From NCBI RefSeq assembly GCF_019704555.1, contig NZ_AP024745.1, forward strand, positions 8,564,501 through 8,628,500: a DNA stretch of 64,000 nucleotides. Reading direction: 5' to 3'. Shown here piece by piece: positions 11,620-61,006 of the stretch. The position numbers were made by a program, and so were the translations under genes. The stretch's first letter is position 1. Every line of letters starts with the position of its first letter. The notes beneath the pieces were generated by a model. That model was not told where the DNA came from. It made no database searches and was given only the letters and a program-made list of their open reading frames with translations. Origin of the DNA: Actinoplanes sp. L3-i22 (GTDB lineage: Bacteria; Actinomycetota; Actinomycetes; Mycobacteriales; Micromonosporaceae).

Positions 11620-12669
11620 TCAGCGCAACCCGGCGACTGCCGCGTAGACCTGCTCGCGCAGCGCGTCCGGCAGCGGCGCATACCCCGCCGCTCCGGCAGC
11701 CGCCTGACCCGCGGGACTTGCCGCATAGGCCAGGAAACCGCGCGCCACCGCAGACGCCCCCGACCCACAGACCACCTCATAGGTGACCTGCACCAGCGGG
11801 TACGCACCACCGTACAAGTCGTCGTAATTCAGGTCGAGCCGCAGGTCGCCGCCGCCCGCCGGTTTCGCCGCGGCCACCGCATCGGCCGCCGCCGCGTCGG
11901 TCGGCGCCACGAAGTCGCCGCGCGAGTCCCCGACCAGCGCCGTGGCCAGCTCGTTGACCCGGGCATAGGACGCCTCGACATAGCCGATCGCCCCGTCCGC
12001 CCGGGCGATCGCCGAGGCCAGCCGGTCGCTGCCCTTCACCGCGACGCCGCCCTTGGCCGGCCACGCGCTGGCCGGCTCGTAGGGCCAGTCCGCCTTCGCC
12101 GTCCCGGCCAGGAACCGGGTGAAGTTCGACGTGGTGCCCGAACTGTCCTCCCGGTGGACGGCCTGGATCGGGGTGGCCGGCAGCACAACGTTCGGGTTGT
12201 CGGCGGCGATCGCCTTGTCGTTCCAGACGGTGATCCTGCCGTTGAAGATCTTCGCGATGGTGGCCGGCGCGAGCCGCAGCTCGCCGACGCCGGCCACGTT
12301 GTAGGCCAGCGCGATCGGCCCGATCACCAGCGGCAGGTGGACGGCCGGCTGACCGCCGCAGCGCGTAGCGGCGGCGGACTGATCGGCGTCGCTGAGCGCG
12401 GCGTCGGTGCCGGCGAAGTCGCCCGTGCCGGCCAGGAACGTGCGCACCCCCGTACCGGAACCGACGCTCGAATACGCCACGGCCGCCTGCGCGCAGGCGA
12501 TCTGATACTGCTTGATCCACTCGTTGACCGCGTTGGCCTGCGCGGAAGAACCCTGCCCCGCCGCCGACCCGGAGGCGCACGCGACCGGCTCGGCCTTCTT
12601 CTCCGGTTCGTCGCAGGCGGTGAGGACCAGGAGCGCGGCGATGGCGACGGCCGCTGTGAGCTTCTTCAT
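11620..12669 (-). CDS. PstS-like phosphate-binding lipoprotein
   Basis: A 349-residue extracellular binding protein. MKKLTAAVAIAALLVLTAC gives a lipobox (LTAC, Cys19). The mature part has the PBP-like II fold of PstS: YSSVGSGTGVRTFLAGTGDF near the N-terminus (the phosphate-loop region), FNGRITVWNDKAIAADNP, and AVHREDSSGTTSNFTRFL, a hallmark of the family. No PstC, PstA or PstB genes are adjacent. Instead it lies 10 bp after a GlnX-like membrane protein gene on the same strand, so a sensing role rather than transport is plausible. Phosphate as ligand is by family resemblance only. Confidence 0.85.
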   Translation of the reverse strand: MKKLTAAVAIAALLVLTACDEPEKKAEPVACASGSAAGQGSSAQANAVNEWIKQYQIACAQAAVAYSSVGSGTGVRTFLAGTGDFAGTDAALSDADQSAAATRCGGQPAVHLPLVIGPIALAYNVAGVGELRLAPATIAKIFNGRITVWNDKAIAADNPNVVLPATPIQAVHREDSSGTTSNFTRFLAGTAKADWPYEPASAWPAKGGVAVKGSDRLASAIARADGAIGYVEASYARVNELATALVGDSRGDFVAPTDAAAADAVAAAKPAGGGDLRLDLNYDDLYGGAYPLVQVTYEVVCGSGASAVARGFLAYAASPAGQAAAGAAGYAPLPDALREQVYAAVAGLR

Positions 12670-12679
12670 CTCAACCCTC

Positions 12680-14185
12680 TCAGCGGTACTCGGCCAGGCG
12701 GCGGCGCACGCCGAGCGGAATCAGCAGGATGACCAGGCCGAGGGCCACGATCGGGATGATCACCCAGCCGCGCAGCGTGCGTTCCGCGCCGCTCAGGGCA
12801 CGATCAAAACCCTGCTTCCGTACGTCGGTGACCGAGCCGACCGCCGCGTCGAAGTAGGCGAAGTCGAACGCGGCGTCGCCACGCCGGATGCCGGTCAGGG
12901 CCTCGACCGCACCCTCGGAGCGCCCGGTGTCGGCGAGCGACACCACCTTCTCGTGGTCCCGCTGGTAGGCCTGCCACCGCTGAAGTGCCTCGGTCCCGGC
13001 CAGTTCCTCGATGCCCGGGCCGCAGTTGCCCTTGGCGACCGGGTTGGCCGAGGTCAGGCAGTCCGACTTGGCGGTGAAGTCGTCCTTGTAGAACGTCAGG
13101 TTCGCACTCACCAGGTACCGGCTGGTGTCGGCGGCGGCGTCGTATCCCACGGCGCGCAGCCGGGACAGCGCGAGGTAGGGGGTCAGGTCCTCATCGCGGG
13201 CGCCGGACATCCGCCCGGCCTGGCTGCTCAGCACGATCATCGCGGCGAAGACCACCACCAGGCTGAGCGCGGTGGCGGCGAGCAGCGCCGGATTCCACGA
13301 TCGGCGGAACCGGCGGGCCATCCAGACCTGCAGGACCACCAGCAGCACCAGGAGGGCGCCGCCGAACAGGATCGCCAGGGTGTAGCCGGTGGCCTCGCTG
13401 GCGCGCTTGTCCGCGTAGGCCTGGTCGAGGCGGCTGGTGGCGGCGTCGCGAAGCTGCTGGGCGGCCGGGAGCAGGCGCAGATGCAGGATGTTCGTCGCCT
13501 GTGTGTAGTAGCCGAGCGCGTCCGGCGGCAGCTTCCCCGCCTGATCGGCGGCCGCCGCCTCCTGACCCGCGGCCGCCGTGCCCTGACCCGCTGCCACCGC
13601 GCCCTGACCCGCGGCCGCGGCGGCCTGACCCGCTGCCGCGCCCTGGCCCGCGGCGGGCGCGGGTCGACCGGTGGCGCTCTGTCCGGCGACTGCCGCCGCC
13701 GTGATCGTCTGACCGACCCGCTGGTGGTAGACGGCCAGGCCGTCCAGCAGGTCGAGCGCGACCGCCCGCTCCGCGTCGCCGGCCGCCGTCGTCAGCGAAC
13801 GCTGCAGGTCAGCGTCGACCTGACGGGACCGCTCCTGATACGACCCCTGGGCGTCGACCCGGGTGCCGGCCAGCGCGTCCGAGTCGCCGGTCAACAGCAG
13901 ACGGGTGATCTGCGCGTCCATGTCGCTGAGCGCGAAGTAGAGATCGGCCGCGGTGGCCGCCTGCGGAGCCGCCTCCCGGCCGATGATCCGGACCTGGTCC
14001 TGCACCCGGGCCATCACCAGGCTGGTGGCGAGGAGCAGGGCGGTGGCCGCGAGGACCACCAGCGCCGACCACAGGCGAAGGCGGGCCGGTGTCTCGTTCC
14101 GGACCAGGTTACGGGCGGTGTTTCTGGTCGTTTCCATGACCGCTGGCACGTCGCCACGGTAATCCATTACCGCAATTGGACTCAT
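12680..14185 (-). CDS. GlnX-like membrane sensor protein
   Basis: A 501-residue protein with four membrane helices at about 41-59, 268-289, 300-320 and 475-495, so two large extracellular segments. The first (60-265) is helical and contains an insertion of AGQG-type repeats at about 177-215. The second (321-470) includes a Cys pair region (DCLTSANPVAKGNCGPGIEE). Layout and the N-terminal SYQERSRQVDADLQ region resemble GlnX, the mycobacterial membrane partner of GlnH in the PknG operon; that resemblance is from memory of the architecture. Start 14185 is supported by AAAGGAG, 10 bases upstream. The paired gene is a PstS-like lipoprotein 10 bp downstream; no kinase gene is nearby. Confidence 0.7.
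   Translation of the reverse strand: MSPIAVMDYRGDVPAVMETTRNTARNLVRNETPARLRLWSALVVLAATALLLATSLVMARVQDQVRIIGREAAPQAATAADLYFALSDMDAQITRLLLTGDSDALAGTRVDAQGSYQERSRQVDADLQRSLTTAAGDAERAVALDLLDGLAVYHQRVGQTITAAAVAGQSATGRPAPAAGQGAAAGQAAAAAGQGAVAAGQGTAAAGQEAAAADQAGKLPPDALGYYTQATNILHLRLLPAAQQLRDAATSRLDQAYADKRASEATGYTLAILFGGALLVLLVVLQVWMARRFRRSWNPALLAATALSLVVVFAAMIVLSSQAGRMSGARDEDLTPYLALSRLRAVGYDAAADTSRYLVSANLTFYKDDFTAKSDCLTSANPVAKGNCGPGIEELAGTEALQRWQAYQRDHEKVVSLADTGRSEGAVEALTGIRRGDAAFDFAYFDAAVGSVTDVRKQGFDRALSGAERTLRGWVIIPIVALGLVILLIPLGVRRRLAEYR
13540..13657 (-). repeat. In-frame AGQG repeat in the GlnX-like gene
   Basis: Residues about 177-215 consist of six units built on A-A-G-Q-G/A/E separated by short Ala runs, from 21-24-bp DNA units with CCCTGACCCGC cores. 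It is predicted to lie in the first extracellular segment. Confidence 0.75.
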
Positions 14186-14304: not shown

Positions 14305-15087
14305 TCAGCCTGGATTGCTCAACGCCGCGAAGATGACCGGATCATGAGCGGAGAGCAGCGTGAGATCGGGATCGGCGCGCTGGTGCAGGGCCGCGAGTCG
14401 GACGTGATTTGCCCGGACCAGGGCGCGGTCGTACGCCACACCGGACTCGGCGAGCCGGAGGCCGAGTGGCACCCGGTCACCGGTCAGCGTGCCCCGGTGA
14501 TAGAACGCGTCACCACAGTGCAGCAGCCAGCGTGACCCGGTGTCGACCGCCACACAGGCGTGGCCGCGGGTGTGCCCCGGGAGCGGGACCAGGACGATGC
14601 CCGGGCCGATCTCGGTGAGCTCCCTCGCGGCGGCGAAACCTCGCCAGCTCTCCCCGCCCGGGCCGTGCTCGACCAGGTCCGGCCCGTGGGACCACTGCAC
14701 ACTGCGGAACCGGCGGCGCTCCCGGCCGGTCGGCGCGCGCAGGGCACCGTCGGCCTCGGCGGCGGTGACGTGGACCCGGGCCTGCGGGAAGTCGGCCAGG
14801 CCGCCGATGTGGTCGAGGTCGAAATGGGTCACGACGATATGTCGTACGTCGGAAGGTTTGAAACCCAGACGCTGGACCTGGACCACCGCGGTCTCCTCCC
14901 GCTCCAGCGCGGGACGCAGCAGGTGGCGGGGTGGGCCGAGCCTGGTCCTCGGGTCGGCGATGTCGGCCAGGCCGAAGCCCGTGTCGATGAGCACGAGGCC
15001 GGCGTCGCTCTCGGCCAGCAGCACGTGACAGACCAGGTCACCGCCCGGCGCTCGCATCGTTCCGCAGTTGAGGTGATGGACCCGCAT
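14305..15087 (-). CDS. MBL-fold metallo-hydrolase
   Basis: A 260-residue metallo-beta-lactamase-fold hydrolase, probably cytoplasmic. The metal motif is [10 protein letters not shown] (HxDxDH variant of HxHxDH), with later ligands in [11 protein letters not shown] and [13 protein letters not shown]. The N-terminal half ([20 protein letters not shown]) fits the fold's first strands. The HFDxDH motif is typical of the group related to quorum-quenching lactonases and glyoxalase II-like enzymes; the substrate is unknown. The start MRVHHLNCG at 15087 is chosen because GGGGAGGG lies five to six bases upstream; the frame is open further but without such a site. It stands alone between two larger transcription units. 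Confidence 0.85.
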
Positions 15088-15204
15088 CTTGCCCTCCCCG
15101 TTCGTCGGTGCCAGCGAACCTACGCCGCCGCGACGCCGAAAACACCCTTCCAAAGAAGGGTTGTCGGGGCCCTGCCGGAGGGTTCAACGTGGACGGGCGA
15201 CAAG

Positions 15205-15235
15205 CCGGCCGCCCCGCGCAGAGCGAGGCGGCCGG
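15205..15235 (-). terminator. Possible terminator of the helicase-nuclease gene
   Basis: CCGGCCGCC (15205-15213) and GGCGGCCGG (15227-15235) form a 9-bp stem with a 13-nt loop just past the stop at 15250. There is no T-run, so this is tentative. Confidence 0.4.
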
Positions 15236-15249
15236 GCCGGAACGGAAGG

Positions 15250-18200
15250 TCAGTGGCGGGAGGTGTGACGGGCGTGGCGATGGGTGGACTCATGGCGCGG
15301 GAGCTGGATGGCCTCCGGCAGCCCGTGCGCGGCGGAAAGCCCGTTGGGCTGCTGCAACAGGTGCCCCCCGGCGACCAGATCGGCCAGCAGGCCGGTCAGG
15401 CGGGCGTCGAAATCGGCGGAACGGCGCGCCGACCAGCCGTAAAGGCGGGCCACCGCGGCGAGCAGCTCGTCGACCGACAGGACGCCGCCGTCGACCACCA
15501 GGTTCTCCACGGCGATCGCCAGCTCCGCGTCGGAGACCTGGTCGGCCTTGCGGGCCACGCCGTCGGTGCGGTGCCGCACCCGGGGGATCTCCTGGTCCGG
15601 GTCGCCGAGGAAGGCGCCGTCCCAGGCCACGCCGGCCTCCTCGATGGCCGCCTCGATCGCGGCGCGGGCCGGGCGGGTGATCCGGGCCAGGCCCCACTCC
15701 TCACGCATCCGCTGCAGAGCGACGCTGATGTGCACCGGGCCCTCGATCTCGGCCAGGCGCCGCACCGCGGCGATCAGTTCGGGGCGCAGCGCCGGGTCGG
15801 TGAGAGAGGCGCCCGGCACGAGCGGGTCAAGATCCGCTTTTTGGTACGGGTGAGCCCACTCGTCCGTGTGCGCGACCATCTCGGCCGTCGTCTCCGTCGC
15901 AGGCGCCACCAGGTCCCGCTCGACGTCCAGGACCGCCTCGTGATGGGTCCAGCCGGGCGGGGCGGCCATCGTCTCCTCGAACTCGCCGACCGCCACGGCG
16001 CGGTCCGGCTGCCCCTCCATCTCGTCGTACCAGGCGTGCCGGCCGACCCGCTCGGAGCGAACGGACCGCTCGGCCACGGCCGCCGCGGCGTCGGCGAGCT
16101 CGGGGTCGAGGTTGACCGAGCCGGTCAGTTCCGCGCGGATCTGCGAGATGGCCCCGAGCCGGTCGGCGGGCTCCGCCGTCTCGTCCAGCCCGGCCAGGAA
16201 CTGCGCGGCGGCCGCGGCCAACTCCTCGGTGCCGACGCCGAAACGGGCGGCGACCTCGGCCAGGTCCTCCGGGCTCGCGACGGCCTCGTCGTCCCGGGCC
16301 GCGACCGGCCAGGCGACCTCGGAGACCGCGCGCTCGGGCGCCCACCGGGCGGGTTCCGCGAAGGCGTCGGACGGCCACTCGGCCGGTTCCTCCAACGTCG
16401 CGGCGGGCCACTCGCTCGGCTGCTCAGCCGTTGCCGCCGGCCACTCGTCCGGTTGCTCCACAGCGGCGGACGACCATTCGACCGGCTGCTCCACAGCGGC
16501 GGACGGCTGCTCCGCAGTTGCCGACGGCCACTCGATCGGCTGCTCCATGGTTGCCGACGGCCACTCCACCGGCTGCTCCGCGGTTGCGGACGGCCATTCG
16601 ATCGACGAGACGCGGCGTTCGGTGGGCTCGGCCGGGGGCGTCGCGGTCGACCGCTCGGCTGGGGTGGCCAGGCGTTTGGCGAGCTCAGTCTGGTCCTCGC
16701 GGCCGGCCGACGGCCACTTCACCGCGGATACCTGCCGCTCACCGGGCTCGGCGGCGACGACCGGCTCGGCGAGCGTCTCGCGGGCGGCCGACGGCCACTT
16801 CACCGCGGACACTTGCCGTTCGCCGGGCTCCTCCGCGATGACCGGCTCGGCAGGCTGCTCGCGGGCCGCCGACGGCCACTGGACTGTGGTGACCGTCTTC
16901 TGGGAGGCGGCGGCCGGCCGGTCGGTGAGGTCCTCCGCCTCGTCCCACTCGCCGGTCTCGTCGCGGACTGCGGTGGGCCACGTGACGGGCGCGACCCGGG
17001 ATCCCTCGGCGACCGGCCAGTCGACGCGCTCGGGCGCCTCCGCGCGACTGGCGAACGGCCAGTCGGCGCGGGCGGAGCTGTCGGTGGACAGAGCGGACGA
17101 GGCGGGCGCGGCAGACGGGACCGGGTAATCGGCGGACGGGGTGGCCCAGGTGGCCGACTCGGCGTGGGCGGAGTGCGCCGCGGTCATCGCGGGCTCGGCG
17201 ACTGCCTCGGCCGGCCAGTCGGCAGGCTCGTGCTGGTCGACGTTGAGCTGGGCGATCGCGGTGTCGAGGGTCGCGCCGAGGTAGGCCTCGGCCGCGGCGA
17301 GTTCCTCGGCGCCGGCCTGGGCGAAGGCGAACTGGGCGGCGATACCGGCCAGCGTGCCGTGCCCGGCCTGCTGCTCGGCGGTCGAATGTTCGGCTACGAC
17401 GCGCTCGGTCACCACGACATGTTCGGTGAACGGGTGCTCGGTGACGACGACACGCTCGGTGAGCAAGTGCTCCGTGACGACGACCTGTTCGGTGAGCGAG
17501 TGCTCGGCGACCAGGACGGCGTCCTCGATGATCTCGGCGACGAGCGGCTCCACGTCGGCCTGATCAGAATCGGCCAGCGCCGAGTTGAGGTGGCGGAGGT
17601 CGTCGGTCTCGTGGGCGGCGGCCAGGTCGGCCTCGGCGGCGGCTTCCGCCTCGGCGAGCCCGGCGTCGTCGGCGTCCGTCCAGGCGAACAGGTGGTCCGG
17701 CTCGATGACGTCCGGGTCCACGAAGGTCGCCGGCACGTCGCCGGCGGCGAAGTCCTCGGCGGCGGGCTGCTCCGGGCCGACGGCGGCGACGTCCTCGGCG
17801 GCGGATTCTGCCTGGGTGAACGCGGACACCGGACCATCGGCGGCGCGGGCCGGGGCAGCGGGTTCCGCCGGCGTGAACGCCGAAGCCAGGCGGCCCGTGG
17901 CGCGGGCCTCGGCGGCGGGCTGCGCGTGGGCGAATGCGGCGGCCGGGGCGGCGGCTACCGCGGCGGCCAGCTCGTCGACGGACAGCGGCTCCCGCTCGAT
18001 CCGGTCGTCGGCGGAGGACGACGCCTGGGCGGCGTGTGGTGCGGTCGGGGCGGTGCTCGTGCCGTACGCCGAAGTGGTTTTGACCTCGCCGTAGCCTGCC
18101 GCATAGCCCTCGGCGGCGTCGGCGATCGGCTGGTCGGTGATGCCGGCCTCGGCCGGCGACATCTGGGCGACCGCGAGCTCCGGCGCCTCCTCGTCGGGAA

Positions 18201-21200
18201 GCTCCGCGAACGCGTCCTCGATCGCGGCGCGCAGGCGGGTCTCCTCGCGCTCCCGGTCCAGGTACCAGGCGGTGCCCCAGACCCGGTGCAGCCTCCAGCC
18301 GAGCGCGTCGAGTACCTGGTCACGCAACCGGTCGCGGTCCCGGGCGGTGGGTGCGGAGTCGTAACTGGTGCCGTCGCACTCGATGCCGAGGGCGAACGGG
18401 GCGTTCCGGCGGGCCGAGCGGCGCACCGCGAGGTCGATCCGGAAGGCGCCGGCGCCGACCCGGCTCTGCACCCGGTAGCCCCAGCCGCGGACGACGTCGC
18501 GCACCGAGTCCTCGAACGGGGTCTGCGACTCGTCGCCGTCCGGCTCTTCCAGCCCGAGCGCGGGGATCCCGCGGGCCGCGTAGTCCAGGAAGGTGGCCAG
18601 GTGCCGCAGGCTCTCGTCGGTCTCGGACAGCTCGCGGGCGCGGACCGCGGAGACCACCTCGAGGCGGCGCCGGGCGCGCGTGGTCGCCACGTTGAGCCGG
18701 CGCCAGCCGTCGCGGCCCTCGAGTCCGCCCAGCTCACTGCCGATCGCGAAGATCACCACGTCGCGTTCGTCGCCCTGCACGGCGTCCAGGTCCTTGACGA
18801 AGAAGCCGCGCAGCCGGTCGTCCTCGAGCGGGACGACCATGTCCGCGACCGCCGCTTCGACGTGGGCGGCGTCCTCGGCGGTGCAGACCACCACGCCGAG
18901 GCTGCGGTCCGGCCGGGTGACGAGGTGGTGGGCGACCCGGGTGGCGACCAGCTCGGCCATCGACATCTCGCCGGTCGCGGGGTAGAGCTGCACGCCGCTG
19001 TCCGGGCCGGCCGCGGCGAACGCCGGGAAGGTGTTGAGCCGGCCCTGGTAGAAGGCGTGGTTGGCGAAGGCGATCAGCGACTCGTCCCGGCTGCGATAGT
19101 GGGTGCCCAGGTCGAGGACCCGGAACGCCCCGCAGGCCAGGGCCACGTCGAGGATCGAGCGCGGGTCGCCGCCGGGGATCGGGGCGGCCGGCAGCTGCCG
19201 GTCGTCGCCGCAGATCACCAGGGCGTTGCCGCGGTAGGCGCAGGTCAGCGCGTCCGGCACCGGCACCCGGGAGGCCTCGTCGATGATCACCACGTCGAAG
19301 TGCAGGTCGGCCGGGAGCAGGCGGCTCACGTCGGCCGGCGACATCACCAGGCACGGCTTGACCGCCATCGCCGCGTGCGCGGTGCGGGCGAACAGCTCCC
19401 GGACCGGTGGCCGGCGGCCCTGGTAGGCGGCGGACGCGCGGAGCAGGGCGGCCTCGCCGGCCGCGGCCTCGGCCGGCTGGAGCGCGTCGACCGCGTTCAT
19501 CACCTCGCCGGCGGCGGCGCGCTGCAACTGGGCGTCCCAGATCCGGAACTCGCCGACCAGCCGATCCCGGGCGACCGCGTCGAGCGGCGCGAGCCGATCG
19601 TCCTCCCGGATGATCGCGTCGGCCCAGGACTGGAAGAGCGCGCGGCCGAGCACTGGCAGGATCTGCTCGACCGGCAGGTCCTCACGGGTGCAGAAGTCGA
19701 CGACGGCGTCGAGTCCGTGCTCGGCCAGCACCGTGCGGGCGGCCTGGTAGTCGAACCACTCCTGCTGGCCCCGGTTGTCCTCGAGGAGCTCGCGGAGCAG
19801 CACCCGGGCGGTTTCCCGCTCGTCCAGGGCGACACTGAGCGCGGGGTGCCGGCTGGGCGCGAAGGCCCGCAGGATCCAGTCCCGGGCGGACTGCCACTCG
19901 GCGACCCGGGCCGGCAGGGTGTCGCTGGGGCGGGTCCGGCCGAGCACGTCGGCCTGCTCGGTGGTGAACGCGATGTCGCCGCCGTTGCGGATCCGCCGGG
20001 CCTCGGAGGTCCAGGCCATCGCGGCGGCCAGCGCCTCCACGTCGGTCTGGGTGCCGCGGTAGGCGTTGCCCAGGACCTTGGCGTAGTCCTTGGCGTTGGA
20101 CGACAGCGCCGCGGCGGCCTCGGACGCGCTCTCCCGGAGCAGGCCGATCGCGGCCGCCTCGGCCAGCGTGAAGTCCCGGGTGGCGGCCACGCTGTAGGCC
20201 TGCACCAACTCGGCGACGGCGGTGAACGGCTCGACGTGGGCCCGCAGCCAGGTGACCGCGTCGTGGATCGGGCCGGTGGCGAGCGCCGGCCGGGGCGCGG
20301 GCTCGGGCGGCGGGCGCAGCGCGGCGGTCCAGCGTTCGAACTCCTTGCCGGCCTCGCCGACGATCCGGATGATCGCGCTGTTCGGGGTGGGTGCGCAGAT
20401 CCGCTCGATCAGGGTGGGCAGCGCCTCGGGCGGCGTGACCCGGAGGGTCTCCTCGGCGGTGGCCAGCGCGCGCTCGATCGCGTCGAAGTCGGTGTCCAGC
20501 CGCTGCCAGTGCTTGCCGAGGATGCCGGCCTGCTCCCGCTCGGCCTGGTCCAGCTCCTCCAGGGCGCGTTTCCAGGCGGCGGCCGCGTCCAGGTTGGCGA
20601 CCGCCTGGGAGCGCTTGACGTCCGGCCGGGCGATGTCCGCCGCGGCCTTCTTGTCCCGGCGGTACGGCGCCCGCAGCTTCCCGATGCCCTTGTGCTGGTG
20701 GGCGAACCGCTCGACGAGCTCGTCCACCGGCTCGGCGAGCGCGTTCTCGCTGAAGTGCTCGCGGGCCCGGGCCTCGGCGGCCTTGACCACGTTCACGACG
20801 CGCCGCAGGTTCCGCATCGACGCGTGCGCCGCCTGCGTGCCCATGGCGTCGAACCAGGCCGGCTCCGGCTTGTCCGGGCGGGACAGCAGGTCGACGATGG
20901 CGGACAGCCGGGGCAGGTCGGTGAACGCGACCACGTTCGGCAGGCCGAGCCGGGCGGTGACCCGGTCCAGGCTGTGCTGGTGCTGTTCGAGCCGGTCCGA
21001 CTCGTCGGCGAAGCGGCGGGCCAGTCCGCGGGCCTTCGCGGCGGTGAGCGGCAGCAGCTCGACCGCGGGCGGCTTCAGGTGGGCCAGGCTCGGGATGAGC
21101 GGCAGCTTGCCCGGGGCGGGCAGTGCGCTCCAGGTGACCCCGGCCCGGGCCCGGACCGCGTCCTCCGCCTGGTGCAACGCCTTCAGGTGCCGCAGCAGAC

Positions 21201-22863
21201 CCTCCGCGGCCCGGGCCACCGGCTCCAGGCTGGTCATGGTGAGCCACTCGTCGGCGGCCTCGGCCGGGCGCCGGATGGCGTGCCCGACCAGGGTGGTCAG
21301 GGTGATCGCCTCGGCGATCGAGCCGACCTGGAAGGCCTCGGCGAGCGGATCCCGTTCGATCGCCTCGGCCAGGTGGTCCAGCGCGGTCTGCGCCTGGTGC
21401 AGCCGGGCGTCCAGGCGGTTCCGGTCGATCACGTCACGCCAGAGGAAGTCGCCGCCCTCCCGCGCCGGGCGCCAGGCGCGGCCCAGCCGCTCGGCGGCGT
21501 CCCGGACCCGCTGCAGCGACTGGGTGGTGAGCGGGATCGGCAGCTCGGCCGGGGCCGGCGCCTGTGCCACGTCGGTCATCTGCGCGCACATGCCGAGCAC
21601 GTCGTGCAGGCGGTGGCCGAGCGGCTCACGCACCTCGTTCATCGCCTCGGCGTAGGCGTTCAGCCGTCCGCGGTGCTCCCGCAACGCCTCGCGCTCGTCG
21701 GTGGACAGGTCCGGCGGCGGCAGCGGGATGAAGTCCAGGGCGGCGGCCAGGGTGGCCGCCACCTGGTCCCGGCCGGTCCGGCCGCTGTGCAGTTCGAGCA
21801 GGTAGTCGTGCAGGCCGGTGGGCTCGAGCCGGTCGAGGACGGTGTCCAGGGCGGCGGCCTTCTCGGCGACCAGCAGCACCCGGCGGCCGGCGTGCAGCAG
21901 ACCGCCGATCATGTTGGCGATGGTCTGCGACTTACCGGTGCCGGGCGCGCCACGCATTACGAAGGAGCGCCCGTGCAGGGCGGCGGCGACACAGGCCCGC
22001 TGCGCGGCGTCGGCGTCCAGCACCAGCGGCACGTCGTCCGGGGTGGCAACCTCGTCGATCCGCCGGCCGGTGATCACCTCGAACTTGAACGCGTCGGGCT
22101 GCGCCTCGGGGTGGGTGGCCAGCGCGCGGATCACCGGGTGCTCGAGGACCCGGCGCTCGTGGTCGAGCAGGTCGGTGTACATCACCTCGCGGTGCACGGC
22201 GAACCGGGTGAGCAGCACCGCCTCGTCGGAGTGCCAGTCCGGGTGGTCGCCGAGCGCGGCGTCCAGCCGGGCCCAGAAGACCGTGACGTCCAGACCGGCC
22301 AGGCTGTCCACGGCGGGCAGCTCGATGTTGTGCCGGCGCAGGCAGATGTCCAGGGCCGGGTTGACGATCGGGTCCTCGGCGCGGGCCCGCAGCCGCGGGT
22401 AGTCCTGCGGATCCGGGGTGACCAGGTCGACCGGGAGCAGCAGGATCGGGCTGACGTGCTCGTTCCCCCCGTCCCGCCAGCGGACCGTGCCGAGCCCGAG
22501 GTAGAGCGTGGAGACGCCCTGTTCGAGCAGGTCACGGCGCGCGGTCCGGCGCAGCGCCCGCAGCGTGGCATCCATCTCCGCGTCGGCCAGCGCGGTCTGG
22601 AACACGTGCGAGGCGCGTGGTCGTGGACCTTCCGCCTGTTCCTCGATGCCAAGGAAGCCGCACTCGCGCCCCTGTTGGAGCGCCTCGACGATACTGCGCG
22701 GCGAGGGGCTGACGATCTCGACCACCCCAGGCGCCGTGGTCCGCACGTCGATCAGCGGATTGGCGCCTGTGAGGTCGAGCAGCCCGTCCCGCCACTCGTC
22801 CAGTGTTGCCCGCACTCGGGCATCAGGCCGCCCGGTCAACCCGTCCGATTGATCCCACCGCAT
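15250..22863 (-). CDS. Giant DUF4011 / SF1 helicase / Vsr-like nuclease protein
   Basis: A 2537-residue protein. Order of parts: N-terminal DUF4011-like region (about 1-280); helicase domain 1A with Walker A GAPGTGKSQT at 305-314; a long helical insertion; Walker B IIDEASRVPVPDALT near 1195; GDDRQLPA near 1221; helicase motifs VQGDERDVVIFAIG near 1365 and NVATTRARRRLEVVSA near 1395; a Vsr/MutH-type nuclease (REase_MTES_1575 group) at about 1445-1545 with GYRVQSRVGAGAFRIDLAV, LGIECDGTSYDS and RLHRVWGTAWYLDR, whose Asp, Glu-Cys-Asp and Arg positions look intact. Then comes a ~750-residue acidic Ala/Glu/Pro linker with WPSA repeats, and a folded C-terminus (about 2345-2520) resembling DUF3320. 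Such helicase-nuclease fusions include proteins reported as antiphage (Hhe), so DNA defence or repair is the inferred role. It is co-directional with and 302 bp after a HIRAN-domain gene. Confidence 0.88.
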   Translation of the reverse strand: MRWDQSDGLTGRPDARVRATLDEWRDGLLDLTGANPLIDVRTTAPGVVEIVSPSPRSIVEALQQGRECGFLGIEEQAEGPRPRASHVFQTALADAEMDATLRALRRTARRDLLEQGVSTLYLGLGTVRWRDGGNEHVSPILLLPVDLVTPDPQDYPRLRARAEDPIVNPALDICLRRHNIELPAVDSLAGLDVTVFWARLDAALGDHPDWHSDEAVLLTRFAVHREVMYTDLLDHERRVLEHPVIRALATHPEAQPDAFKFEVITGRRIDEVATPDDVPLVLDADAAQRACVAAALHGRSFVMRGAPGTGKSQTIANMIGGLLHAGRRVLLVAEKAAALDTVLDRLEPTGLHDYLLELHSGRTGRDQVAATLAAALDFIPLPPPDLSTDEREALREHRGRLNAYAEAMNEVREPLGHRLHDVLGMCAQMTDVAQAPAPAELPIPLTTQSLQRVRDAAERLGRAWRPAREGGDFLWRDVIDRNRLDARLHQAQTALDHLAEAIERDPLAEAFQVGSIAEAITLTTLVGHAIRRPAEAADEWLTMTSLEPVARAAEGLLRHLKALHQAEDAVRARAGVTWSALPAPGKLPLIPSLAHLKPPAVELLPLTAAKARGLARRFADESDRLEQHQHSLDRVTARLGLPNVVAFTDLPRLSAIVDLLSRPDKPEPAWFDAMGTQAAHASMRNLRRVVNVVKAAEARAREHFSENALAEPVDELVERFAHQHKGIGKLRAPYRRDKKAAADIARPDVKRSQAVANLDAAAAWKRALEELDQAEREQAGILGKHWQRLDTDFDAIERALATAEETLRVTPPEALPTLIERICAPTPNSAIIRIVGEAGKEFERWTAALRPPPEPAPRPALATGPIHDAVTWLRAHVEPFTAVAELVQAYSVAATRDFTLAEAAAIGLLRESASEAAAALSSNAKDYAKVLGNAYRGTQTDVEALAAAMAWTSEARRIRNGGDIAFTTEQADVLGRTRPSDTLPARVAEWQSARDWILRAFAPSRHPALSVALDERETARVLLRELLEDNRGQQEWFDYQAARTVLAEHGLDAVVDFCTREDLPVEQILPVLGRALFQSWADAIIREDDRLAPLDAVARDRLVGEFRIWDAQLQRAAAGEVMNAVDALQPAEAAAGEAALLRASAAYQGRRPPVRELFARTAHAAMAVKPCLVMSPADVSRLLPADLHFDVVIIDEASRVPVPDALTCAYRGNALVICGDDRQLPAAPIPGGDPRSILDVALACGAFRVLDLGTHYRSRDESLIAFANHAFYQGRLNTFPAFAAAGPDSGVQLYPATGEMSMAELVATRVAHHLVTRPDRSLGVVVCTAEDAAHVEAAVADMVVPLEDDRLRGFFVKDLDAVQGDERDVVIFAIGSELGGLEGRDGWRRLNVATTRARRRLEVVSAVRARELSETDESLRHLATFLDYAARGIPALGLEEPDGDESQTPFEDSVRDVVRGWGYRVQSRVGAGAFRIDLAVRRSARRNAPFALGIECDGTSYDSAPTARDRDRLRDQVLDALGWRLHRVWGTAWYLDREREETRLRAAIEDAFAELPDEEAPELAVAQMSPAEAGITDQPIADAAEGYAAGYGEVKTTSAYGTSTAPTAPHAAQASSSADDRIEREPLSVDELAAAVAAAPAAAFAHAQPAAEARATGRLASAFTPAEPAAPARAADGPVSAFTQAESAAEDVAAVGPEQPAAEDFAAGDVPATFVDPDVIEPDHLFAWTDADDAGLAEAEAAAEADLAAAHETDDLRHLNSALADSDQADVEPLVAEIIEDAVLVAEHSLTEQVVVTEHLLTERVVVTEHPFTEHVVVTERVVAEHSTAEQQAGHGTLAGIAAQFAFAQAGAEELAAAEAYLGATLDTAIAQLNVDQHEPADWPAEAVAEPAMTAAHSAHAESATWATPSADYPVPSAAPASSALSTDSSARADWPFASRAEAPERVDWPVAEGSRVAPVTWPTAVRDETGEWDEAEDLTDRPAAASQKTVTTVQWPSAAREQPAEPVIAEEPGERQVSAVKWPSAARETLAEPVVAAEPGERQVSAVKWPSAGREDQTELAKRLATPAERSTATPPAEPTERRVSSIEWPSATAEQPVEWPSATMEQPIEWPSATAEQPSAAVEQPVEWSSAAVEQPDEWPAATAEQPSEWPAATLEEPAEWPSDAFAEPARWAPERAVSEVAWPVAARDDEAVASPEDLAEVAARFGVGTEELAAAAAQFLAGLDETAEPADRLGAISQIRAELTGSVNLDPELADAAAAVAERSVRSERVGRHAWYDEMEGQPDRAVAVGEFEETMAAPPGWTHHEAVLDVERDLVAPATETTAEMVAHTDEWAHPYQKADLDPLVPGASLTDPALRPELIAAVRRLAEIEGPVHISVALQRMREEWGLARITRPARAAIEAAIEEAGVAWDGAFLGDPDQEIPRVRHRTDGVARKADQVSDAELAIAVENLVVDGGVLSVDELLAAVARLYGWSARRSADFDARLTGLLADLVAGGHLLQQPNGLSAAHGLPEAIQLPRHESTHRHARHTSRH
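16340..16900 (-). repeat. WPSA coding repeats in the helicase-nuclease linker
   Basis: The linker region around residues 1985-2175 repeats an 11-residue unit of the form EWPSATAEQPV about ten times, with variants VKWPSAAREQ and VQWPSAAREQ. DNA units are about 33 bp. Trp-Pro spacing suggests short linear binding motifs or a bristle-like spacer; function unknown. Confidence 0.8.
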
Positions 22864-23165
22864 TTTTCCATTGCAGCAAGGCGACGGGCCGCATGGTGGC
22901 GTTTTTTCGGGTTAATCCGACGTTCTGCACGGATCGGACCACTTCGGGATCCCACCAGCAACAGCAGCCCCAGGAGAACCACCGACCGGCCGCCGACGGA
23001 GACCGCGGGCCGCCGAGGCCGGGAAACGAAGCGACCATCGGACGAGACCGCGGGCCACCTGAGCCGGGAACCGAAGCGGCCACCGAACGAGCCGGCGGGC
23101 CACCCGAGCCGGGAAACGAAGCGGCCGCCCCGGGACGGAGCGGCCACTGGTCGAGGTACGAGGGA
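22864..23165. repeat. Intergenic region with a 45-bp triple tandem repeat
   Basis: Three imperfect copies of a 45-bp unit start at 22999, 23044 and 23089 (cores GCGGGCCACC, GAGCCGGGAAACGAAGCG). The period is a multiple of three, so minus-strand frames give a repeated 15-residue string, but there is no ribosome site or plausible protein. Promoter elements for the helicase gene should be in the right-hand 130 bp (22864-22998), which is less GC-rich. Confidence 0.7.
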
Positions 23166-25286
23166 TCAGTCCCAGGTCGGGACCCACCACTGCCAGCCGA
23201 TCGGGGCGAGCGGCCAGCTGACGTCCGGCTGCCAGCCCTCCGGCGGGTACCAGCCGTCCGGCGGGGTGGGCCAGCCCGGCGGGACGACGAACTTGATGCC
23301 GGTCGGGGCGGACGGGATCGCCGGGTGCCGGTTCGCCTCGGGGGCGGGTGACACCGGGGCGCTGCCGGAGGCGGTGGCGGCGTGCTTGTTCATCACGACG
23401 GCGGAGAGCGCCGGGATGACGGTGGTCTCGGCGATCTCGCCCGAACCCCCGAACAGGCCGACCGGCGACCCGGCGCCATTGAACGAGCCGGCGGGCGAGC
23501 CGACGCTGCTGAACGAACCGGTCGACGACCCCGCGCCGAACGAAGCGCTCGACGAATCAGCGCCGAACGAGCCGCTCGACGAATCGGCGCCCGCCGGCGA
23601 GCCCGTGCTGCTGAACGAGCCGGTCGACGATCCCGCCCGGCCGAAGGAGCCGCTCGCCGGATCGGCGCCGAACGACCCGGTCGACCCGGTTGACCGCCCG
23701 TCGGCGCCGAACGACCCGGTCGACCCGGTTGACCGCCCGTCGACGCTGAACGAGCCGGTGGACTGCCCGTCGACACCGAACGAGCCGGTCGACCCGTTGC
23801 CGCCGAAGAGCCCGGCCGAAGCCGAGCCGGCGATCGGGGCCGCGGGACTGACCGGAATCCCGCTGATGCTTCCGGGCAGCGGAGCGGTCGGCACGCCCGG
23901 AATCGGATGGGCCGCCACCCCGGGAACAAAACCAGACGAACCCCCCGAAACAGGCCCCGTCGACATGCCCGGGATCGGGCCGGTCGACAAACCGGGGTTC
24001 GAGCCGGTCGACATCCCGTGGCTCGATCCGGACGACACACCGGAAATCGGGCCGGTCGTCATCCCGGGGTTCGAGCCGGACGACATGCCGGGGATCGGGC
24101 CGGTCGACAGGCCGGGCCCCGACGGGCCGGAGACGGAGCTGGTCGGGACCCCGGAGGTCGGAGTGCCCGGGTCGTCCGCCTGGGGCCGGCCGGCGATCGT
24201 CGGGACCGGGCCGCTGACCGACGCCGCCCAGCTCGGGACGGGGCCGCTCGGCTGCACCCAGGTCGGGACCAGTTCGCTGCGGTCCATCCAGGTGGGCTGC
24301 GCGTCGCTGGGCGTGGAGGCCCACGACGGCACGGCGTCGCTGGCGCTCATCCAGCTCGGCACCGCGGAGGTGCCGGCGGCCGGCAGCTCCGGCCCGGCGG
24401 CGGCGGGCATCATCGGGCTGGTCGCCGCGGGCGTTACCGGGGTGGTCGCGGCGGACGTCACCGGCGCGGTCGCGGCGGACGGCGAGACGGGCGCGACCCG
24501 GCCACTGGCGGCGGCGCTGCGAGCGGCCGGACCGGTCCAGCTCTCCGGCAGATCCTGGACCCGGGCGACGTACAGCAGAACTTCGGTCTTGTTGGCATTG
24601 CTCTTGACCACCGCACGGGCGGCCACGACGAGTCCGCGCTCGGCCTGGTACCGCAGGATCGGGGTGAGCTCGAAGCTCATCTTCGGGCTCAGGTCACCCA
24701 CCCGGCCGTCGCCGAGCCGGACCTCGACCAGGTGATCGGCCATCTCGTGCAGCGTCACGTAGGCCCAGCACTCGCCCTCCGGCCGCTGGTAGGGCGCCAG
24801 CGCGTCGGGGTGCTGCTCCTGCCCGTTGACCTGCAGCGCCGACCCGGTCGGCAGGAGCCGGTGCTCGTGCGCGGGCGGGTTGTTGGCCGGCATGATCATG
24901 TGCGGTTCGGCGAGGTCGAGGCGGATCGTGCCGACGAAGGCGGGCGGGCGACCGTCGTACTCTCCCCATTCCCGGCCGTGGATCTGCGCGTTGACCTCGG
25001 GGATCAGGTTGCGCTTGGCGAGCGTGGTGAGCACCCCGATGTACCGGGCGGCCTCGGGCCGTGGCAGGTGCCCGAGCAGCGCGGTGTCGGCCCAGACCCC
25101 GACGGCGTTGCGATCGTGGCGATTGCTGCGGTCGGGCATCAGCTGGACCGGGATGGTTATGTCGGTGCCCTGGGGGTTGAAGTCGTTTCCGAACAGCGCA
25201 CGTATCGACTTGGCGTAGTGCGTCTCGCCGACGACCTCGGCGCTAGCCCAGCCCGCTTGTCCCCAGAGTTGGAACCGATTTGCCAC
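23166..25286 (-). CDS. HIRAN-domain protein with Gly/Ser repeat linker and aromatic tail
   Basis: A 706-residue protein. Residues about 15-110 fit a HIRAN domain: VVGETHYAKSIRALFG, then LMPDRSNRHDRNAVGVW (xNxxDxNAVxV signature) and ALLGHLPRPEAARYIGVL. HIRAN domains bind DNA ends or damaged DNA in HLTF and in bacterial nuclease/helicase contexts. A second folded region continues to about 285. Residues about 290-655 are Gly/Ser/Pro/Thr repeats (GPIPGMSSGSNPGM type, then STGSFGADGR type). The last 45 residues form a Trp-rich tail (PPGWPTPPDGWYPPEGWQPD) common at the ends of actinobacterial proteins. The GTG start has TAACGT six bases upstream, a leaderless promoter. It precedes the helicase-nuclease gene on the same strand. 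Confidence 0.85.
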   Translation of the reverse strand: MANRFQLWGQAGWASAEVVGETHYAKSIRALFGNDFNPQGTDITIPVQLMPDRSNRHDRNAVGVWADTALLGHLPRPEAARYIGVLTTLAKRNLIPEVNAQIHGREWGEYDGRPPAFVGTIRLDLAEPHMIMPANNPPAHEHRLLPTGSALQVNGQEQHPDALAPYQRPEGECWAYVTLHEMADHLVEVRLGDGRVGDLSPKMSFELTPILRYQAERGLVVAARAVVKSNANKTEVLLYVARVQDLPESWTGPAARSAAASGRVAPVSPSAATAPVTSAATTPVTPAATSPMMPAAAGPELPAAGTSAVPSWMSASDAVPSWASTPSDAQPTWMDRSELVPTWVQPSGPVPSWAASVSGPVPTIAGRPQADDPGTPTSGVPTSSVSGPSGPGLSTGPIPGMSSGSNPGMTTGPISGVSSGSSHGMSTGSNPGLSTGPIPGMSTGPVSGGSSGFVPGVAAHPIPGVPTAPLPGSISGIPVSPAAPIAGSASAGLFGGNGSTGSFGVDGQSTGSFSVDGRSTGSTGSFGADGRSTGSTGSFGADPASGSFGRAGSSTGSFSSTGSPAGADSSSGSFGADSSSASFGAGSSTGSFSSVGSPAGSFNGAGSPVGLFGGSGEIAETTVIPALSAVVMNKHAATASGSAPVSPAPEANRHPAIPSAPTGIKFVVPPGWPTPPDGWYPPEGWQPDVSWPLAPIGWQWWVPTWD
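23662..23739 (-). repeat. Perfect 39-bp tandem duplication in the HIRAN gene
   Basis: Two identical 39-bp copies (23662-23700, 23701-23739) encode 13 residues each of the TGSTGSFGADGRS type. Further degenerate copies flank them. Perfect identity implies recent slippage. Confidence 0.8.
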
Positions 25287-25392
25287 ACGCGAACGTTAGT
25301 GTCTGCTTTCCGTCAGTCACGTCGTCCGTACGGATGACGACCGCTGGCCGGACGGTCCGTATCTGAATGATCAACTCTAAGCAGCGTTCAGG

Positions 25393-58807: not shown

Positions 58808-61006
58808 ATGGTCGCCATGCCCGGCGTGCCCCCGACCTCCCGCCCGGCGCCGCACGTCCTGGAAGCGGTGCTCGAGCGGCTGACCTATGTGAACGAGGAC
58901 ACCGGCTACACGGTCGCCCGGGTGGCCACCTCGCGGAGCGGCGACGACCTGCTCACCGTGGTCGGCGCGCTGCTCGGGGCGCAGCCCGGGGAGAGTCTGC
59001 GGCTGTCCGGCTGGTGGTCCTCGCATCCGCAGTACGGGCGCCAGTTCGAGGTCGTCTCGTACACCACGGTGCTGCCGGCGACCGTCCAGGGGATCCGCCG
59101 CTACCTGGGATCCGGCCTGGTCAAGGGGATCGGCCCGGTGTTCGCGGAACGGATCGTGGAGCACTTCGGGCTGGACACCCTGGAGATCATCGAGGGGTCG
59201 CCGGCCCGGCTGATCGAGGTCACCGGCCTCGGCCCGAAACGCACCGCGAAGATCACCGCGGCGTGGGCCGAGCAGAAGGCGATCAAGGAGGTGATGCTGT
59301 TCCTGCAGGGGGTCGGCGTCTCCACGTCGATCGCGGTGCGGATCTACAAGAAGTACGGGGACGCGTCCATCTCGGTGGTCAAGAACAGTCCGTACAAGCT
59401 GGCGTCAGATGTGTGGGGCATCGGGTTCAAGACCGCGGACACGATCGCGCAGGCGGTCGGGATCCCGCATGACAGTCCCGAGCGGGTGAAGGCGGGGCTG
59501 CAGTACACGCTGTCCCAGGCGACCGATAACGGTCACTGCTTCCTGCCGGTTGACGATCTCTCGGCCGAGGCCGCCAAGATCCTCGAGGTCCCCGCCGGAC
59601 TTGTCCCGACATGTCTGGCGGAGCTGGTCGAGGAGGAAGGGGTGGTCCGCGAAGGGGACCACGTCTACCTGGTGCCGTTCCACCGCGCGGAAATGTCGCT
59701 CGCCTCGACGCTTGTCAGTCTGTTGCGCGACAAGTCGGACCGGATGCCGGCCTTCCACGGCGTGGACTGGCCGAAGGCGCTCGCCTGGCTGCACCGGCGC
59801 ACCGGCTCCACCCTCGCTCCCGAGCAGGAGGCCGCGGTCAAGCTGGCCCTGACCGAGAAGGTCGCGGTGCTGACCGGCGGCCCGGGCTGCGGCAAGAGCT
59901 TCACCGTCCGCTCGATCGTCGAGCTGGCCGCGGCCAAGAAGGCCAGGATCCAGCTGGTCGCGCCCACCGGCCGCGCCGCGAAACGCCTCGCCGAGCTCAC
60001 CGGCCACCCCGCCGCCACCGTGCACCGGCTGCTCAAGCTGCAGCCCGGCGGCGACGCGACCTACGACCGGGACAACCCGCTCGACGCCGACCTGGTGGTC
60101 GTCGACGAGTCCTCGATGCTCGACCTGATCCTGGCGAACAAGCTGGTCAAGGCGATCCCGTCGGGCGCGCACCTGCTGCTGGTCGGCGACGTCGACCAGC
60201 TGCCCTCGGTCGGCGCCGGCGAGGTGCTGCGCGACCTGCTCGCCGCCGACGTCATCCCACGCGTCCGGCTCACCCAGATCTTCCGCCAGGCCGCGGAGAG
60301 CGGCGTGGTCAGCAACGCGCACCGGATCAACCAGGGCCGCCCGCCGGTGTTCGACGGGATGCGGGACTTCTTCCTGTTCCCGTGCGACGACACCGAGGCG
60401 ACCGCGGGCCTCACCGTGGACGTCGCCTGCCACCGGATCCCGCGCAAGTTCGGCCTCGACGCCCGGCGCGACATCCAGATCCTCACCCCGATGCACCGCG
60501 GCCCGGCCGGCGCCGGCGCGCTCAACACGCTGCTCCAGCAGGAGCTCACCCCCGGCCGGGAGGGGCTGCCGGAGCGCCGGGTCGGCGGGCGGGTGTTCCG
60601 GGTCGGCGACAAGGTCACCCAGATCCGCAACAACTACGACAAGGGCGCGGCCGGGGTCTTCAACGGCACGGTCGGCGTGGTCACCGCGTTGTCGCCGGAA
60701 GAGCAGAGCCTGACGGTACGGACGGACGAGGACGAGCAGATCGACTACGACTTCGACGAGCTGGACGAGCTGGCGCACGCCTACGCGATCACCATCCACC
60801 GGTCGCAGGGCTCGGAGTACCCGGCCGTGGTGATCCCGCTGACCACGAGCGCCTGGATGATGCTCCAGCGGAACCTGCTCTACACCGCGATCACCCGTGC
60901 GAAGAGGCTGGTCGTGCTGGTCGGCTCGCGCAAGGCGCTGGCCGCCGCGGTCCGCACGGTCGGGGCCGGCCGCCGGCACACCGCGCTGACCGAGCGCCTC
61001 AGCTGA
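58808..61006 (+). CDS. recD2: RecD2-type ATP-dependent DNA helicase
   Basis: A 732-residue SF1B 5'-3' helicase without RecBC, involved in repair or replication-fork processing. An N-terminal OB-like part (about 20-95) and helix-hairpin-helix repeats (about 95-200; GSGLVKGIGPVFAERIVEHF, LIEVTGLGPKRTAKI) precede the motor. Walker A LTGGPGCGKSFTVR near 357, Walker B VVVDESSMLDL, motif III LLVGDVDQLPSVGAGEVLRD, motif IV LTQIFRQA, and the C-terminal ITIHRSQGSEYPAVVIPL and YTAITRAKRLVVLVG are intact. ATG 58808 or 58817 may be the start. Overlaps the convergent membrane-protein gene by 8 bp. Confidence 0.94.
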   Translation: MVAMPGVPPTSRPAPHVLEAVLERLTYVNEDTGYTVARVATSRSGDDLLTVVGALLGAQPGESLRLSGWWSSHPQYGRQFEVVSYTTVLPATVQGIRRYLGSGLVKGIGPVFAERIVEHFGLDTLEIIEGSPARLIEVTGLGPKRTAKITAAWAEQKAIKEVMLFLQGVGVSTSIAVRIYKKYGDASISVVKNSPYKLASDVWGIGFKTADTIAQAVGIPHDSPERVKAGLQYTLSQATDNGHCFLPVDDLSAEAAKILEVPAGLVPTCLAELVEEEGVVREGDHVYLVPFHRAEMSLASTLVSLLRDKSDRMPAFHGVDWPKALAWLHRRTGSTLAPEQEAAVKLALTEKVAVLTGGPGCGKSFTVRSIVELAAAKKARIQLVAPTGRAAKRLAELTGHPAATVHRLLKLQPGGDATYDRDNPLDADLVVVDESSMLDLILANKLVKAIPSGAHLLLVGDVDQLPSVGAGEVLRDLLAADVIPRVRLTQIFRQAAESGVVSNAHRINQGRPPVFDGMRDFFLFPCDDTEATAGLTVDVACHRIPRKFGLDARRDIQILTPMHRGPAGAGALNTLLQQELTPGREGLPERRVGGRVFRVGDKVTQIRNNYDKGAAGVFNGTVGVVTALSPEEQSLTVRTDEDEQIDYDFDELDELAHAYAITIHRSQGSEYPAVVIPLTTSAWMMLQRNLLYTAITRAKRLVVLVGSRKALAAAVRTVGAGRRHTALTERLS

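Follow-up and report, generated by a model that had tools for sequence, protein, structure and literature searches.

A tandem-HIRAN protein gene beside a giant DUF4011 helicase-nuclease gene in one Actinoplanes clade: a candidate DNA-end-directed device

Giant helicase-nucleases of the DUF4011 type include named antiphage families. A locus of the soil bacterium Actinoplanes sp. L3-i22 raises the question of whether a separate protein could sense DNA ends for an enzyme of this kind. We analyzed a 64,000-nucleotide (nt) stretch of its 12.01-Mb, single-contig genome (NZ_AP024745.1, assembly GCF_019704555.1, positions 8,564,501-8,628,500 of the forward strand; hereafter the window), in which two minus-strand genes lie 302 bp apart, a tandem-HIRAN gene upstream and a giant helicase-nuclease gene downstream. 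With its two HIRAN folds, the upstream protein is a concrete candidate sensor of DNA ends. The pair probably belongs to a known kind of DNA-processing or anti-invader device, here joined by a new partner. More specifically, and tentatively, we read it as a fixed, modification-independent device of one Actinoplanes clade, in which a DNA-end-directed helicase-nuclease would act on foreign or damaged DNA.

The gene pair and its protein parts

Each protein was searched in a sample of 67 Actinoplanes genomes. Orthologues of the HIRAN protein (71-100% identity) and of the helicase (72-100%) were found in the same 27 genomes; the other 40 have neither, and none has just one. Close orthologues are known from named species, among them Actinoplanes missouriensis 431, whose helicase AMIS_55760 is 73% identical. 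In all 27 the two genes are adjacent and on the same strand, with the HIRAN gene first. The parts of the pair are as follows (amino acids, aa; SF1, superfamily 1; REase, restriction endonuclease-type domain).

23166..25286, minus strand: tandem-HIRAN protein, 706 aa (open reading frame; orthologues in 27 genomes)
24897..25286, minus strand: HIRAN domain 1, residues 1-130, with an N-x-x-D-x-N-A loop at 55-61
24564..24863, minus strand: HIRAN fold 2, residues ~142-241, without the N-x-x-D-x-N-A loop
23313..24539, minus strand: linker of the HIRAN protein, rich in Ser, Gly, Pro and Ala, residues ~250-658 (disorder judged from composition)
23169..23312, minus strand: Trp-rich C-terminal tail (GWP...GWQWWVPTWD), conserved in orthologues
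15250..22863, minus strand: giant helicase-nuclease, 2537 aa, with DUF4011, a split SF1 helicase, an MTES_1575 REase, a disordered linker and DUF3320 (open reading frame, Pfam, PADLOC, PDB relatives, selection)
22348..22782, minus strand: DUF4011 domain, residues 28-172 (Pfam, 91.1 bits)
21928..21951, minus strand: Walker A motif GAPGTGKS, residues 305-312 (G305, G308 and K311 in 27/27 orthologues; residue 312 is S or T)
19270..19287, minus strand: motif II IIDEAS, residues 1193-1198 (E1196 in 27/27, D1195 in 26/27)
18220..18516, minus strand: MTES_1575 (Vsr-type) REase, residues 1450-1548, with E1451, D1477, E1495 and D1497 (Pfam, 105.1 bits)
15814..18057, minus strand: linker of the helicase, rich in Ala, Glu and Pro, residues 1603-2350, with Trp-rich repeats (disorder judged from composition)
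15676..15804, minus strand: DUF3320 segment, residues 2354-2396 (Pfam, 27.2 bits)

The initial annotation had placed two co-directional genes at these positions, which we confirmed, and codon-position guanine-cytosine (GC) content favors both annotated genes. A 3391-codon open frame runs antisense to both (window 14560-24735, plus strand); it was rejected as a gene by codon-position GC and is probably a high-GC effect. For the first gene, the annotation had given one HIRAN domain, a linker and an aromatic tail. All three parts are present, and the protein holds two HIRAN folds instead of one. It has the HIRAN fold and scores 21.0 bits against PF08797, for which the gathering score is 24.7. The loop residues of domain 1 are conserved in orthologues, and the protein may bind DNA ends. 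The part from residue 251 to the end varies between 222 and 848 aa across the 27 orthologues, and the Trp-rich tail is found in 26 of them; in the 27th (G173), assembly gaps fall within the gene. The same kind of tail also ends 46 of 53 short homologues, and the idea that it is a docking peptide specific to the pair is unsupported. PF08797 is carried by 47 of these 53 homologues and is passed by a second HIRAN protein of the same genome (31.1 bits; ~850 aa; G000:C1:3586023-3586760, locus L064), around which a 20-kb stretch contains no helicase relative.

In the giant protein, Pfam finds the SF1 helicase pieces scattered across residues 285-1405. Walker A, motif II and the motif VI arginine, by which a UPF1-like SF1 helicase is recognized, are all present, and the ATPase residues are kept across the 27 genomes with a single D1195E exception. 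The PDB relatives found by sequence are SMUBP-2 (E 7e-8), UPF1 (E 3e-5), SEN1 and DNA2, and by these the helicase is of the UPF1/DNA2-like type. The REase domain scores 105.1 bits against a curated PF18741 cut-off of 38.2, and E1451, D1477, E1495 and D1497 all occur in 27/27 orthologues, so that the nuclease described as apparently intact still appears so. The acidic residues are also found in 34/34 database proteins with an identity of at least ~70%, a large share of which come from the same species; because these overlap with the 27 genomes, they are no independent test of conservation. From their conservation and from what is known of the family, the four residues are likely to be catalytic.

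The top PADLOC model for the helicase is PDC-S37 (872.8 bits, E 1.5e-262; no curated cut-off in the output), followed by Hhe. The PDC-S37 alignment falls into four stretches, the best of which covers positions 654-1369 of 1550. The NCBIfam models Hhe (NF042953) and ProA (NF058533) give 546.3 bits against a cut-off of 2000 and 816.7 bits against 1500, respectively; with scores below both cut-offs, the helicase resembles these proteins in outline and is filed as neither. Thus, the initial comparison with Hhe stands as to kind and not as to family membership. Pfam detected no HEPN or transglutaminase domain in the helicase. Its linker, counted from residue 1601 to 190 residues before the end, is 196-840 aa long across the 27.

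Selection was compared across protein parts by the ratio of nonsynonymous to synonymous differences (pN/pS), taken as the median over 120 of the 325 pairs among 26 genomes; G173 was omitted here and from the loop-conservation and covariation analyses because of its assembly gaps. In the HIRAN protein, pN/pS is 0.30 for domain 1, 0.46 for domain 2, 0.90 for the linker and 0.27 for the tail. In the helicase, it reaches its minimum in the REase (0.31), lies at 0.44-0.51 in DUF4011, the helicase parts and the insert, and, in the C-terminal half, is 1.04 for the linker and 0.63 for the DUF3320 end. Thus, the folded parts of both proteins are under purifying selection and both linkers are near-neutral, the most constrained parts being the Trp-rich tail, HIRAN domain 1 and the nuclease. 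A role of matching Trp repeats in the two linkers as aromatic "stickers" was rejected: only 10 of the 27 helicase linkers have five or more WP motifs, the Trp counts of the two linkers do not track each other, and both linkers are near-neutral.

Helicase paralogues and their nuclease sites

Each of the 27 genomes encodes two further members of the helicase family, with ~45-51% identity to the paired copy. In the window's genome they lie 64 and 122 kb from the paired helicase.

G000:C1:8650882-8655459, outside the window: paralogue L062, ExD glutamate replaced by Q
G000:C1:8709810-8714552, outside the window: paralogue L063, ExD glutamate replaced by R

The E-x-D glutamate of the nuclease is kept by 27/27 paired copies versus none of the 54 paralogues. 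In its place, paralogue A carries Q (11 genomes), R (10), L (5) or V (1) (n = 27), and paralogue B carries R in 27/27. Judging from this one residue, the paralogues are predicted to be unable to cut. Apart from the one D1195E, all 81 copies retain the marked ATPase residues, the copies of G173 being broken by assembly gaps. The matches of the two paralogues to PDC-S37 reach 794 and 983 bits. A HIRAN neighbor was absent from the five paralogue loci examined (L062, L063, L070, L071 and L074). Among the three helicases common to the 27 genomes, a complete nuclease site is thus found only in the HIRAN-linked copy, which leaves one candidate effector, two paralogues with an altered nuclease site and one candidate sensor. 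For Actinoplanes, some genetics is available. The helicase is of a known kind; the points worth a bench test are the second HIRAN fold and the set of nuclease-altered paralogues.

Loss of the nuclease site is not confined to the clade that carries the pair. Among the best 120 of 313 database matches, 45 of the 85 more distant proteins with an REase match have lost the glutamate, including some named Paractinoplanes (P0156, P0170). In genomes without the pair, ten main helicases sampled from relatives have all marked residues intact; two sampled second copies keep the glutamate, one of these two with V for E1451.

In these pair-less relatives, we also observed a gene of ~273 aa and similar sequence behind the main helicase in five of the six loci inspected; the copy in L117 matches a histidine-kinase-like ATPase domain at 26.6 bits, just below the cut-off.

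L117:8169-8990, L119:2303-3121, L121:8242-9066, L123:2357-3178, L126:2518-3342: ~273-aa genes after the main helicase

Joint function, shared descent and other explanations

A DNA-end-directed helicase-nuclease is the most economical reading of the pair. The tandem-HIRAN protein would bind DNA ends or fork-like structures via its first HIRAN domain, and would recruit or license the giant helicase either by direct contact or through shared DNA ends. The SF1 motor would then translocate and unwind, the MTES_1575 (Vsr-type) nuclease would cut DNA, and the C-terminal DUF3320 part could help to bind DNA. The device would act on linear DNA from outside or on broken DNA of the host. We infer DNA-end binding by this HIRAN protein, catalysis, the cooperation of both proteins and the target. 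According to the available passages of PMC8262856, HIRAN domains bind single- or double-stranded DNA ends.

Nearly as likely is the main rival, in which the two genes are neighbors by descent: the helicase-nuclease would be self-sufficient, as in proteins of the PDC-S37, Hhe and ProA kind, the HIRAN protein would have some other role, and the locus would have been fixed once with its order kept. A number of observations weigh against joint function, and we set them out here together with those that speak for it. In a tree of the rpoB region (quick search) that included 60 of the 67 genomes, a single branch separates all 27 carriers of the pair from the rest, with a Shimodaira-Hasegawa-like approximate likelihood ratio test (SH-aLRT) support of 100; the genomes omitted, G194 (no match), G163, G190, G167, G130, G102 and G166, are all without the pair. 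A FastTree of 59 helicases likewise groups the 27 paired copies together with a local support of 100. Because the 27 genomes form one clade, their linkage amounts to one gain followed by inheritance, with no loss seen in the sample. The co-occurrence thus speaks strongly for the usefulness of both genes to the clade, and only modestly for their working together.

Nor is the helicase the only constant neighbor of the HIRAN gene. An oxidoreductase gene lies directly before it in 22 of the 27 genomes and within 4 kb upstream of the pair in all 27. In G180, G178, G177 and G169 (loci L100, L103, L104 and L105), an inserted gene of one family (~630-650 aa) stands immediately before the HIRAN gene; the only copy scanned by Pfam, that of G178, is a BTAD-type regulator. 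Directly after the helicase, three main gene families are found, in 11, 7 and 7 of the 27. What argues against mere neighbors by descent is that the HIRAN-helicase junction alone, among those of the locus, is never interrupted in the 27 genomes, down to ~72% protein identity. A clean empty site was found neither in 12 pair-less genomes with an oxidoreductase orthologue of 73-77% identity nor in two with one of 60-63%; the neighborhood differs in these genomes.

Covariation was assessed from distances among the HIRAN protein, the helicase, paralogues A and B, the oxidoreductase and rpoB. The raw correlations with HIRAN were 0.86 for the helicase, 0.86 for paralogue A, 0.83 for the oxidoreductase and 0.49 for paralogue B. 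Conditioned on the others, including rpoB, the HIRAN-helicase value fell to 0.21 versus 0.39 for HIRAN-oxidoreductase. The value of 0.21 was not attained in any of 500 label shuffles, although these test only for any signal at all. We count the result as null, as it does not single out the HIRAN-helicase pair. The test lends no support to the two-component system that the initial annotation had suggested: in it, the oxidoreductase was closer to HIRAN than the helicase was.

The sequences upstream of the genes point the same way. A separate conserved block stands before each gene, so that an operon is not implied.

22864..22929, minus strand: 66-nt conserved block directly 5' of the helicase gene, with the near-palindrome CGGATTAACCCG (aligned across 27 genomes; mean identity in 20-nt bins reaches 94%)
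25287..25366, minus strand: 80-nt conserved block directly 5' of the HIRAN gene, with the palindrome TCCGTACGGA (aligned across 27 genomes; mean identity in 20-nt bins reaches 98%)

Over the 27 genomes both blocks are roughly as conserved as coding sequence, and the HIRAN-side block includes a TANNNT-like hexamer shortly 5' of the GTG of the gene. Elsewhere in the genome, a 20-base core of the helicase-side block recurs once, with 3 mismatches, and one of the HIRAN-side block does not recur at up to 3 mismatches. The blocks are possible promoters and operators. The gap between the genes ranges from 78 to 1030 bp, and no gene-like frame was found in the 27 gaps, the longest (up to 185 codons) having, in contrast to the two genes, a third-position GC no higher than 0.79.

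Each partner also occurs without the other. Of the related helicases with an intact nuclease that were sampled from pair-less relatives, 10/10 lack a HIRAN neighbor. Among the 40 pair-less Actinoplanes, 11 genomes have HIRAN relatives (14 matches, at most 57% identity), and 13 of the 14 loci, examined over ~16 kb each, showed no helicase relative; none of the helicase matches listed for these 40 genomes exceeds 53% identity. In a family sample of 150 genomes, HIRAN relatives occur outside Actinoplanes in nine, and no DUF4011 helicase was near them at the five loci examined (G012, G050, G064, G072 and G077). In a class sample of 296 genomes, HIRAN was found in 20, DUF4011 in 50 and both Pfam domains in five, where they are adjacent only in the window's own genome and lie on different contigs in the other four. 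Thus, the expectation that the HIRAN gene is conserved beside the helicase gene in relatives holds in 27/27 genomes within one clade, and no adjacent pair was found beyond it in these samples. At the G064 locus (L068:9320-14939), a HIRAN relative has as neighbors, at a distance of ~2.8 kb, a Mokosh-like helicase (276 bits against the MkoA model) and a gene resembling MkoB (48 bits), and fragments of transposases lie in between; this may be a further HIRAN-helicase neighborhood.

Within the 27 genomes, nine carry a second HIRAN copy that is not near any matched helicase. In addition, G143 (L141) and G140 (L144) encode a fourth helicase of 43-44% identity in which the marked residues are intact, which weakens the picture of one effector. 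For this reason, we withdrew the view that the paired copy is the sole intact nuclease of its genome; it is true just for the three paralogues common to the 27. A similar fourth helicase was seen at G146:C246:71709-76508. The fourth helicase relatives of G158 and G161 (L195 and L215) have ATPase motifs and no detectable MTES_1575 domain, and the G161 copy contains an in-frame stop codon. Last, the HLTF residues that we take to be R71 and Y72 are not retained in the HIRAN protein, the orthologues reading T-H-Y at this place.

A third explanation, genome maintenance, overlaps with our preferred reading and differs in the target: HIRAN would mark places where the host's own DNA is broken or its forks have stalled, and the helicase-nuclease would process them. 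The pair is retained in 27/27 sampled genomes of the clade, and at E 1e-5 PADLOC gave no match for nine neighboring genes between 8.2 and 31.4 kb. At E 1e-5 the HIRAN domains had no match among 72,556 records of plasmids and 50,697 of phages, and the available text of PMC8262856 and PMC11706625 places eukaryotic HIRAN proteins at stalled forks. We consider this explanation somewhat less likely than the two above; against it, the best models for the helicase are those of defense (PDC-S37, Hhe and ProA), and distant helicase relatives occur in 398 plasmid records (the eight best at 28-35% identity, none over 80% cover). In the phage collection, a helicase relative was found on one phage-labeled contig, at 27% identity. 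A mobile defense island is unsupported for this copy, given the single clade, the lack of any loss, the absence of HIRAN from the plasmid and phage collections and the distance of the helicase relatives there. Likewise, the proposal of a defense module found no confirmation in the PADLOC-negative neighbors and the vertical inheritance.

It is improbable, on our assessment, that the helicases form a clade-wide multi-helicase immune or repair system, in which the HIRAN-linked competent helicase would work with two pseudo-nuclease paralogues as regulators, decoys or loading subunits. If true, this would be the first system known to us in which a DUF4011 helicase-nuclease has a tandem-HIRAN sensor as a separate protein. 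Least probable is a regulatory partner, by analogy with the putative antitoxins among HIRAN-domain HipN proteins beside HipA-type kinases (available text of PMC8262856), that would restrain the nuclease and release it upon DNA ends or damage: the separate upstream blocks would permit different expression levels and the nuclease site is complete in just one of the three shared paralogues, the HIRAN-linked copy, but intact-nuclease helicases occur without a HIRAN neighbor, including the fourth helicase in two of the 27 genomes.

Elsewhere in the window, the tenth gene scanned with PADLOC, at 58.8 kb, matches several helicase models; it is an ordinary RecD2-type helicase with HHH, OB and SH3 domains (58808-61006, plus strand). 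At 11620-14185 on the minus strand, a PstS-type phosphate-binding protein is encoded beside a GlnX-family membrane signal protein, and in many of the 27 genomes genes of both families were called in the vicinity of the helicase.

Comparison with known systems

Searches of the freely licensed part of PubMed Central for HIRAN together with DUF4011, and for the phrases PDC-S37, ProA and Hhe, returned nothing, which within that part of the literature is no proof of absence. For HIRAN, helicase, Vsr and defense combined, only the work on CoCoNuTs was relevant by title, and for Actinoplanes and HIRAN no listed title was.

The closest match of the helicase is PDC-S37, a candidate single-gene defense model of PADLOC. 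In contrast to this model of 1550 positions, the protein described here has an added linker of ~750 aa, and a HIRAN gene is linked to it. The antiphage equivalogs Hhe and ProA also match over long stretches, and DUF4011 is part of NCBI's name for Hhe; the scores obtained here are, however, far under their curated cut-offs. The HEPN survey of PMC3710099, in its available passages, describes giant proteins that combine an SF-I helicase, a Vsr-family nuclease and a winged helix-turn-helix (wHTH) domain, the last overlapping DUF3320, and proposes that those without modification genes recognize invading DNA independently of modification. Its MTES_1575 group resembles the window's protein in having an SF1 helicase, a Vsr-type REase and DUF3320/wHTH in one giant chain without modification genes, and differs by the HEPN and transglutaminase domains that Pfam did not find here. 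The accessible part of PMC10250203 names a DUF4011 gene among the core genes that border a defense hotspot in Pseudomonas aeruginosa; we take this as another instance of a member fixed in the chromosome.

On the HIRAN side, HLTF and lp_0118 share the fold and the N-x-x-D-x-N-A loop with the window's protein, which is unlike them in its two tandem HIRAN folds, in being a chain separate from the helicase, and in its linker and Trp-rich tail. The clusters of HIRAN-HipA (HipIN, HipL) and HIRAN-HipA-diDNase, as outlined in the available portions of PMC8262856 and PMC11706625, similarly couple a bacterial HIRAN domain to a possible defense or toxin enzyme; their partner is a kinase or a dinuclease, whereas here it is a helicase-nuclease. 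Both sides come together in the CoCoNuTs, as far as the available text of PMC11090510 describes them. Their CnuH is a UPF1-like SF1 helicase, fused to a Vsr-like nuclease in type III-B and preceded in types II and III-A by N-terminal OB folds that resemble prokaryotic HIRAN domains. CoCoNuTs are, in contrast, systems of the McrBC type with coiled coils and predicted RNA targets, and, compared with CnuH, the system of the window has its HIRAN folds in a separate protein and carries DUF4011 in addition.

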